A DNA stretch of 35,213 nucleotides from Methanomicrobiales archaeon HGW-Methanomicrobiales-6 (GTDB lineage: Archaea > Halobacteriota > Methanomicrobia > Methanomicrobiales > Methanoculleaceae). Position 1 is the first letter of the stretch. Every line of letters begins with the position of its first letter. Shown here piece by piece: positions 30,461 to 32,318 of this stretch. The stretch lies in contig PGYH01000007.1 of the NCBI GenBank assembly GCA_002839575.1, positions 1-35,213 on the forward strand. Reading direction: 5' to 3'. The notes beneath the pieces were generated by a model. It saw nothing but the letters and a program-made list of their open reading frames with translations. It did no database searches and was not told the origin of the DNA. The translations under genes and the position numbers were made by a program.

Positions 30461-30490
30461 AACGTAAAAAGGATGAACGTAAAAAGGATG
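30461..30490. repeat. exact 15-bp tandem duplication in a divergent promoter region
   Basis: AACGTAAAAAGGATG occurs twice, at 30461-30475 and 30476-30490. It lies between the unknown gene (start 30439, leftward) and the metallophosphatase gene (start 30544, rightward). The A-rich core could alter promoter strength for either gene. Confidence 0.85.
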
Positions 30491-30543: not shown

Positions 30544-31983
30544 ATGACCGACCACCTCACGCTTCTGCAGATGAACGATTCGCACGGGTACCTGGAACCG
30601 CACCAGGAACTATTCTATGCCGGCGGGCCGCCGGTGTACCGGACGGCAGGCGGGTATGCCCGGATTGCCGCCCTCCTCGAAGAGGCCCGTGACGAGCGGC
30701 CGGGAACTGTGCTCGCGTTCGACTGCGGCGACACCATCCACGGGACCTACCCTGCCGTCCGGTCGGAAGGCGAAGCGCTCGTCCCGGTCCTGAACGCTCT
30801 CGCCTTCGATGCCATGACCGCCCACTGGGAGTTCGCCTACGGCCCGGAGCAGTTCCGGAACGTGGCCGGGAGGCTCGATTACCCGGTCCTCGCCGACAAC
30901 TGCTACGACGATGCGACTGGCGACCCGGTCTTTTTCCCGTACACGGTTTGCGAGACCGACGACCTGCAGGTAGGCGTCATCGGCATCGCCGCCACCATCG
31001 TCGACAAGGTGATGCCGGACTCCTTCTCGGAAGGGATCCATTTCTCCCTGGGGAACGCCGAACTCCCGGGCCATATCGCCCATCTCCGCGAAGAGGAGGG
31101 GGTGGATCTCGTCGTGGTGATATCGCACCTCGGGTTTCCGCAGGAGGTGAAACTCGCCCGCGAGACGGACGGGATCGACGTCCTCCTCTCGGGGCACACC
31201 CACAACCGGCTTTTTGAACCAGCGGTCGTCAACGACACCGTCATCATTCAGTCGGGCTGTCACGCCTCCTTCCTCGGGCGGCTCGACCTTACGGTCGAGA
31301 ACCGGCGGGTGAAGAAGTTCGACCACGAACTCATCGTTGTCGGTGAAGAGATCCGGCCTCACCCGGAGGTCGAGGAGATGGTCGAGGGGATCGTGGAACC
31401 CCACCGCGAGTACCTCTCCCGTGTCGTCGGGGAGACCCGGACGGGTCTTAACCGGAACACGGTTCTCGAGGCCACGATGGACAACCTGCTCCTGCAGGCG
31501 CTCATCGACGCCACGGGTGCAGAGATGGCGTTCTCGAACGGCTGGCGCTACGGCGCCCCGGTGCCGCCCGGCCCGGTCACACAAAACGATCTCTGGGATA
31601 TCATCCCGGTCAACCCCCCGGTCTCGACGACCGAGATCACCGGCCGGGAACTTAAGGCGATGATGGAAGAGAACCTTGAGCGGACCTTTTCGCGCGACCC
31701 CTACCAGCAGATGGGCGGCTACGTGAAGCGGTGCATGGGGGTCAACCTCTACTGCAAGATAGAGAATCCGGCCGGCCTGCGGATCCAGGAGTTCTTTGCG
31801 GGCGGCAAAAGACTCGAGTTGGACGCCGTCTACCGCGCGGCGTTCGTCACCGGGCAAGGCGTGCCGCCGAAGTACGGGAAGAACCGGGAGAATCTCGATA
31901 TCCGGGCGATCGAGGCGCTCGAACGCTATCTCTCGGGCGGCCCCGTCAGCGCCGAACTTCGCGGGAGCGTGACGGCGATATGA
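30544..31983 (+). CDS. 5'-nucleotidase/SoxB-like metallophosphatase
   Basis: The 479-residue protein has the two-domain 5'-nucleotidase layout. Metal-binding motifs are MNDSHGY (Asp12, His14), FDCGDTIHG (Asp near 60), SHLG (His near 195) and SGHTHN (217-221). In classical 5'-nucleotidases the next motif is GNHEFD, with the catalytic His; here it is AHWEFAYG (93-100), lacking the Asn-His pair. SoxB thiosulfohydrolases carry a similar GHWE-type motif as far as I recall, so the SoxB side of the family is the better guess. The C-terminal domain (from about 295) includes NTVLEATMDNLLLQALIDAT and AFSNGWRYGAP. There is no signal peptide, so it is cytoplasmic. ATGA overlap couples it to a DsrE gene. 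Confidence 0.8.
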   Translation: MTDHLTLLQMNDSHGYLEPHQELFYAGGPPVYRTAGGYARIAALLEEARDERPGTVLAFDCGDTIHGTYPAVRSEGEALVPVLNALAFDAMTAHWEFAYGPEQFRNVAGRLDYPVLADNCYDDATGDPVFFPYTVCETDDLQVGVIGIAATIVDKVMPDSFSEGIHFSLGNAELPGHIAHLREEEGVDLVVVISHLGFPQEVKLARETDGIDVLLSGHTHNRLFEPAVVNDTVIIQSGCHASFLGRLDLTVENRRVKKFDHELIVVGEEIRPHPEVEEMVEGIVEPHREYLSRVVGETRTGLNRNTVLEATMDNLLLQALIDATGAEMAFSNGWRYGAPVPPGPVTQNDLWDIIPVNPPVSTTEITGRELKAMMEENLERTFSRDPYQQMGGYVKRCMGVNLYCKIENPAGLRIQEFFAGGKRLELDAVYRAAFVTGQGVPPKYGKNRENLDIRAIEALERYLSGGPVSAELRGSVTAI

Positions 31984-32318
31984 CCCCCTCCCCGCGGGTC
32001 GTCGTCCACCTGGACGAGCGCGAGAAGGCGGCCCTTGTGCTGCGGAATACAAAGAACCTCCTCGAAGATCTTGCAGGTGTCGAGGTTGAGGTGGTCGCCC
32101 ATGCCGACGGGGTGGAACCTCTACGCACCGGCAGCCCGCAGGCGGCGCTCATGGCGCAACTTGCGGATCGGGGTGTCCGGTTCGTCGTCTGCGAGAATAC
32201 TCTCCGTTCCCGGGATTTGTCGGAGAAAGACTTTCCTGGCTACGTTGAAACCGTCCCGTCCGCGATCGTGGAGCTGGTCGTCAGGCAGGCCGAAGGCTGG
32301 CACTATCTCCGGCCGTAA
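31980..32318 (+). CDS. DsrE-family protein
   Basis: The 112-residue protein is a DsrE/F-like fold: VVVHLDEREKAALVLRNTKN, VEVVAHADGVEPLRTG, LADRGVRFVVCENTLRSRDL with Cys71 at the position of the sulfur-carrying Cys in DsrE-type sulfurtransferases, and VPSAIVELVVRQAEGWHYLRP at the end. It overlaps the metallophosphatase stop codon by 4 bases (ATGA), so the two are coupled. The pairing of a SoxB-like hydrolase with a sulfur-carrier fold points to sulfur metabolism. A run of A followed by TATATTA after the stop may be a terminator or promoter element. Confidence 0.85.
   Translation: MTPSPRVVVHLDEREKAALVLRNTKNLLEDLAGVEVEVVAHADGVEPLRTGSPQAALMAQLADRGVRFVVCENTLRSRDLSEKDFPGYVETVPSAIVELVVRQAEGWHYLRP

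Follow-up and report, generated by a model that had tools for sequence, protein, structure and literature searches.

The window, a 35,213-nucleotide stretch of a contig from Methanomicrobiales archaeon HGW-Methanomicrobiales-6, carries two overlapping genes on its forward (+) strand, at 30544..31983 and 31980..32318. The first encodes a SoxB-like cytoplasmic hydrolase of the metallophosphoesterase fold (P0001, 479 aa), recognised from its open reading frame, the SoxB profile TIGR04486, PDB matches and a predicted structure. The second encodes a DsrE-family protein (P0002, 112 aa), assigned through PF02635 (E 2.9e-10; 40.8 bits against a gathering cut-off of 22.7), with MTH1491 (1l1s) as its best PDB match (4e-21). 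The stop codon of the hydrolase and the start codon of the DsrE gene overlap by 4 bases, the ATGA within GCG-ATATGA. On the other side of the hydrolase lie a divergent gene of no assigned family and a DUF2240 gene, while a ribosomal protein S8e gene is found downstream of the pair on the opposite strand. In the space common to the hydrolase and the divergent gene, just 5' of the hydrolase start, AACGTAAAAAGGATG occurs twice in near-tandem (window 30461-30490). The best named matches of P0001 are to Methanoculleus species, at 93-95% identity, and the host is, judging by these sequences, a Methanoculleus-type methanogen.

P0001 resembles the UshA, YfkN and CpdB 5'-nucleotidases (the NHE type) in its two-domain fold, in the DxH, GD and GHxH motifs and in its Pfam domains, 5_nucleotid_C and Metallophos. 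Its metal-binding motifs comprise DSH at residues 12-14 (30577..30585, +), of which D12 and H14 are invariant in 37 homologues; GD at residues 62-63 (30727..30732, +), invariant in the same number; SHLG at residues 194-197 (31123..31134, +), where the invariant His195 is a putative metal ligand; and GHTH at residues 217-220 (31192..31203, +), with His218, invariant, and His220, nearly so, as further putative ligands. The departure from the nucleotidases lies in AHWEFAYG, residues 93-100 (30820..30843, +). In the alignment, nucleotidase GNHE corresponds to AHWE in P0001 and to SHWE in SoxB, with His94 occupying the position of the Asn ligand and Trp95 that of the catalytic His; the Asn at this position in nucleotidases is normally a metal ligand. 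As H94 is invariant and W95 nearly so across 37 diverse homologues, the HWE of P0001 is not a product of chance. A sequence-only reading of this DNA had proposed that AHWEFAYG stands in place of the nucleotidase GNHEFD, that the DSH, GD, SHLG and GHTH motifs remain, that the classical catalytic Asn-His pair is absent, and that SoxB carries a similar HWE-type motif. The first two points hold exactly as described, the third can be sharpened to the replacement of Asn by His94 and of the catalytic His by Trp95, and for the fourth the alignment reveals an identical pair of changes in canonical SoxB.

The correspondence with SoxB extends beyond this motif, since the contexts of R335 and R396 and a DPYxQxGG segment are common to P0001 and SoxB and are not found in the nucleotidases. 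In 4uwq, the disulfide-linked SoxB-SoxYZ complex, a Cys stands at exactly the position of the Trp, which suggests that the motif Trp lies where the substrate-bearing cysteine arrives; statements on the SoxB active site made here rest on the alignment and on published work (PMC5336275).

Independent tests show that the resemblance of P0001 to SoxB is real. The best NCBIfam model is SoxB TIGR04486 (332.3 bits, E 4.3e-99), with the next best at 107 bits, and it hits every one of the 37 family members tested. Among PDB sequences, too, the top match is a SoxB, 2wdc from Thermus thermophilus (E 2e-48), ahead of the nucleotidases. An AlphaFold2 model of P0001 (mean pLDDT 93.8, pTM 0.92) confirms the predicted metallophosphoesterase fold, and its best Foldseek matches are SoxB structures at TM 0.91-0.92, with nucleotidases slightly behind. 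P0001 thus shares with SoxB (TIGR04486; 2wdc, 4uwq) the fold (TM 0.91), His-Trp-Glu, the metal-ligand motifs, and the C-terminal Arg and GG segments. It is nevertheless not a canonical SoxB: its profile score falls below the curated cut-off of 550 bits, canonical SoxBs scoring 726-860, it is some 80-90 residues shorter, and it has Cys239 where SoxB has Ser. The profile match begins only at position 111 of 556, and the N-terminus of the translated frame is MTDHLTLLQMNDSHGY; with DSH already at residue 12, a signal peptide has no room in P0001. The name SoxB is also borne by an unrelated cytochrome oxidase of Sulfolobales.

The phylogenetic position was assessed with a tree of 75 proteins, built under LG+C20 with the motif columns removed and with the nucleotidases as the outgroup on which the root relies. 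The GNHE/GNHD nucleotidases split from all proteins with a Trp-type motif (the P0001 family, SoxB and the GNW proteins) at 98/95, and at 100/100 once long branches were removed. Canonical SoxB (100/100) and the P0001 family (100/98) form separate clades, and the two persist without the long branches (99/99 and 100/99). The GNWE/GNWD proteins group with the P0001 family, with support that weakens to 94/76 without long branches. P0001 is therefore a member of a distinct, unnamed clade on the SoxB side. The kinship with SoxB over nucleotidases favoured by the sequence-only reading is upheld by profile, PDB, Foldseek and trees alike, and the clustering inside ordinary nucleotidases that would have spoken against it did not occur. 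On its question whether the HWE branch is monophyletic, the HWE-bearing proteins were not recovered as a single clade in the motif-free trees, where the GNW proteins group with the P0001 family, although the AU test leaves room for a single origin (p 0.134). The idea that HWE is a strict synapomorphy uniting SoxB with the P0001 clade was accordingly set aside. The Trp is the shared mark of the SoxB-side branch, within which the change of Asn to His may have arisen once or twice.

The GNWD/GNWE relatives comprise proteins of Sporosarcina and Cohnella, proteins of 550-571 aa in Pontibacter and Runella, and haloarchaeal proteins of 594 aa. Like the P0001 family they have Trp for the catalytic His and sulfur genes as neighbours; unlike it they keep the Asn ligand, show ~30-41% identity, and in some cases carry extra N-terminal sequence. 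Haloarchaeal GNWD relatives at six loci (594-745 aa) represent another unnamed group on the SoxB side.

At least 258 candidate relatives of P0001 emerged when 84,980 species were scanned by pattern plus tblastn. Among the best 80 of these, identity ranges from 95% in Methanoculleus down to 56-64% in other phyla, including Chloroflexi, Bacillota, Bacteroidota, Nitrospirota, Alphaproteobacteria, Bathyarchaeota, Asgard and Thermoplasmatota; the Pontibacter and Neobacillus homologues are 57-58% identical. The clade is widespread but sparse: within Bacillota a match above 470 bits occurs in 4 of 249 genomes, the next proteins dropping to 251 bits, and in the phylum of the window 17 of 295 genomes exceed 560 bits, with a gap down to 165 bits. 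Archaeal and bacterial members are intermixed in the tree, and orthologues reside on plasmids of Bradyrhizobium, Bosea, Sphingobium, Novosphingobium, Pontibacter and Hymenobacter, several of them conjugative, which together make horizontal transfer of the family likely. Two bins labelled Chloroflexi and Micrarchaeota encode proteins 64-68% identical to the methanogen one, and these and some other oddly labelled metagenome bins may reflect contamination or mis-binning. On a plasmid of Pontibacter akesuensis, and at one further locus (L112), three paralogues of the fold (a 550-aa GNWE, a 480-aa HWE and a 540-aa GNHD protein) occur in one sulfur cluster with DsrE, TlpA, rhodanese and a putative sulfate exporter. 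A literature search of partial coverage returned no paper on the P0001 clade in archaea.

Outside the genus of the window, the neighbours of the family were collected as runs of genes on the same strand spaced by no more than 200 bp, giving 79 genes, among which the commonest families are Rhodanese (9), Sulf_transp (6), Lactamase_B (5) and DsrE (5). The identical procedure applied to 38 loci of GNHE/GNHD nucleotidases gave 81 control neighbours, with no family exceeding 3 and each of these four at most 1. Rhodanese, Sulf_transp and DsrE together account for 20 of 79 neighbours against 0-3 of 81, corresponding to Fisher p values from 2e-7 (0 in the control) to 7e-5 (3 in the control), which are indicative, because genes of one operon cannot be treated as independent observations and the taxa sampled differ between the family and control sets. 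At three loci (L073, L074 and L127) the automated collection took a wrong ORF for the family gene.

Individual loci illustrate this enrichment. In an Anaerolineae bin an MBL-rhodanese gene overlaps the family gene by 1 base; at two loci, L078 and L079, a rhodanese and then an MBL-rhodanese follow immediately 3' of it; in a Thermoplasmatota genome DsrE lies 6 bp upstream; and in an Asgard bin YeeE and thioredoxin lie beside it. In Sphingobium, YeeE, DUF6691, TauE, TlpA, DsbA and a fusion of a BLH phosphatase-like domain to a pyridine nucleotide-disulphide oxidoreductase are found near the gene, and plasmid relatives sit among annotated YeeE/YedE, TauE, rhodanese, DsrE, TusA and MBL genes. The more distant relatives present a similar picture, with TusA, DsrE/F-like and MBL-fold genes near the GNWD group on Sporosarcina and Cohnella plasmids (~40% identical; with rhodanese in Sporosarcina), DsrE and YeeE around the GNW relative of Runella, and MBL-fold and TauE genes alongside a haloarchaeal GNWD relative. 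Counting against a sulfur reading, two Methanosarcina loci have a phosphoribosyltransferase-type ORF (scanned in L089) and an alpha/beta hydrolase, with no sulfur genes. Proteins of DUF302 and DUF202 turn up repeatedly next to the family gene, at five loci from unrelated hosts, and may be part of the same sulfur systems. Overall, the sulfur linkage of the clade is strongly supported, and the sulfur role first suggested from the window sequence now has the backing of neighbourhoods in many phyla, set against a matched nucleotidase control.

Within the genus, the neighbour of the hydrolase is the DsrE gene. The early description of the next gene as a DsrE-fold protein with Cys71 and a 4-base overlap is correct; Cys71 (32190..32192, +) is invariant in 14 aligned DsrE relatives. 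Among 25 genus genomes the hydrolase is present in 20, a DsrE match accompanies it in 18 of these, and 5 have neither; in the two hydrolase genomes with no DsrE match, contig ends border or interrupt the hydrolase gene. However, six genomes with a complete hydrolase frame have a DsrE gene that is frameshifted, truncated or degenerate, and in one of them Cys71 has become Tyr. Another of the six is assembled in one contig and is 99% complete, so assembly error is no general excuse for the broken frames. Pairwise dN/dS values of the hydrolase have a median of 0.19 with intact DsrE and 0.20 with broken DsrE (0.25 for DsrE itself), indicating purifying selection on the hydrolase in either case. From these sequences DsrE appears to be dispensable, with about six genus genomes holding a decayed DsrE beside an intact hydrolase, and its role as an obligate carrier is doubtful; the pseudogenes likewise weaken DsrE as an obligate partner of any kind. 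Tight pairing is largely limited to the genus of the window, and an adjacent DsrE is uncommon elsewhere, with independent DsrE neighbours in Thermoplasmatota, Chloroflexi and Bacteroidota loci. At L073 an antiporter-like ORF separates the DsrE gene from the hydrolase. Conservation of the pair, put forward earlier as a check, thus holds for 18 of the 20 hydrolase genomes of the genus by DsrE match, and fails in that at least six carry a decayed DsrE and that outside the genus DsrE is one of several partners.

Rhodanese domains are present in all genus members searched, and the genome of the window encodes a 467-aa MBL-rhodanese fusion (L232:1801-3204, -; G000:C97), unlinked to the hydrolase and 45% identical to the fusion close to the family gene in L078, which speaks for the explanation favoured below. 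This fusion has a persulfide-dioxygenase-like architecture, here in a strict anaerobe. Sulf_transp (YeeE) was not found in the 16 genus genomes searched, which counts against the explanation favoured below. SoxY (PF13501) was not found in the genome of the window (searched family by family, 88% complete), in five further genomes of the genus or in two of the order, several of them 99% complete; the same search was positive in three canonical Sox plasmids used as controls, and a canonical Sox pathway in this genome was therefore rejected.

Taken together, P0001 is best explained, with a probability of roughly 0.55, as a putative thiosulfonate (R-S-SO3-) hydrolase of the cytoplasm that would draw on interchangeable sulfur carriers, and which probably splits sulfate from sulfur-sulfonate bonds rather than phosphate from nucleotides. 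We infer the identity of the metals, the reaction, the substrate and the part played by DsrE as a carrier for P0001. The two-metal site would hydrolyse the terminal sulfonate of R-S-SO3- or R-S-S-SO3-, attached either to a small molecule or to the cysteine of a carrier, so that sulfate is set free and a thiol or persulfide stays behind (R-S-S-SO3- + H2O -> R-S-S- + sulfate). In the genus the usual sulfur-carrier partner would be the co-translated DsrE, acting through Cys71, and elsewhere rhodanese, MBL-rhodanese, TusA or YeeE-type proteins would replace it. A methanogen could plausibly use such an enzyme for sulfur assimilation from thiosulfate, or for the removal of sulfite adducts.

Published work provides several points of comparison. 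SoxB has thiosulfohydrolase activity on trithionate as a substrate analogue, and the thiosulfonate group of the carrier coordinates its two manganese ions (PMC5336275). In Erythrobacter flavus 21-3, SoxB has been proposed to release sulfate from tetrathionate independently of SoxYZ, an idea based on genetics and stoichiometry (PMC7608252). The SoxB-like proteins of this strain, possible counterparts of P0001, are SoxB-domain proteins annotated as metallophosphatase/5'-nucleotidase and belong to a cluster upregulated with thiosulfate; two of the three gave no phenotype, their deletion leaving sulfur globules unaffected, which may count against the proposed function (PMC7608252). P0002 shares the DsrE family PF02635 and the conserved Cys with MTH1491 (1l1s) and ST0148 (2pd2), both deposited as hypothetical proteins, and with archaeal DsrE3A, which has two reactive Cys, works with TusA and, like TusA, carries Cys-S-thiosulfonate (PMC4175335). 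According to Liu et al. (2014; PMC4175335), the mechanism by which TusA-bound thiosulfonate loses its sulfonate, through hydrolysis to sulfate or reduction to sulfite, is unknown, and a SoxB-type hydrolase located in the cytoplasm and encoded next to DsrE, TusA, rhodanese or MBL-rhodanese genes fits this gap. A more specific form of the proposal is a SoxYZ-free, carrier-dependent cytoplasmic counterpart of the Sox step, in which DsrE (TusA or rhodanese elsewhere) would hold Cys-S-S-SO3- and the SoxB-like enzyme would remove sulfate; this we advance tentatively, as one possibility.

The alternative that survives best, possible though rather unlikely, is that P0001 is a small-molecule sulfonate hydrolase independent of DsrE, acting on polythionates or low-molecular-weight S-sulfonates such as S-sulfocysteine or coenzyme M-S-sulfonate, perhaps as a means of removing adducts derived from sulfite or thiosulfate, with DsrE only collecting the released sulfane sulfur. 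The decay of DsrE under equal selection on the hydrolase, the interchangeable partners outside the genus and the SoxYZ-independent action proposed in E. flavus (PMC7608252) all accord with it, whereas the translational coupling in most genus genomes and the independent DsrE neighbours argue against it. It is improbable that P0001 is a 5'-nucleotidase or UDP-sugar hydrolase of the ordinary kind whose motif has drifted, as its Pfam domains and the Methanosarcina phosphoribosyltransferase neighbour might imply. UshA, YfkN and CpdB keep GNHE/GNHD, form a separate branch and have neighbours not enriched in sulfur genes, in contrast to P0001; Trp replaces the catalytic His in nearly the whole clade, and the genome encodes a separate GNHE-type enzyme of ~580 aa, so that the nucleotidase niche is already filled. 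More improbable still is a metal-dependent, sulfur-linked protein with another reaction, such as a persulfide-processing hydrolase or a sulfurtransferase acting through Cys239. At least 90% of the family keep this residue, which lies in SGCH (31258..31260, +), canonical SoxB having Ser or a Gly-Ser context at the site, and many neighbouring proteins handle persulfide; in a few members with otherwise intact motifs, however, it is replaced by Ser, Ala or His, and Cys239 as an essential nucleophile was dropped because it is not universal in the family. A true SoxB thiosulfohydrolase of the Sox pathway, transferred into methanogens, is highly improbable, for P0001 has the profile and fold match, HWE and the metal motifs of SoxB, but stands apart from it in curated cut-off, clade, SoxYZ in the genome (SoxY being unmatched in all methanogen genomes searched) and, with no signal peptide, periplasmic export.

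A thiosulfonate hydrolase working with exchangeable carriers would have consequences beyond this locus. Because clade members go by the annotation 5'-nucleotidase or bifunctional metallophosphatase, a probable sulfur enzyme lies hidden in at least a few hundred species, its hosts including strict anaerobes and its vehicles conjugative plasmids. Surveys based on soxB can also, if their thresholds are loose, include methanogens and further non-Sox organisms in their counts. The P0001 family is a direct candidate for the hydrolytic sulfonate release left open in earlier work (PMC4175335). If the carrier-dependent reading is true, it would supply that step for DsrE/TusA thiosulfonates, and would provide methanogens and many other microbes with an internal route from thiosulfate or sulfite adducts to sulfate and persulfide.
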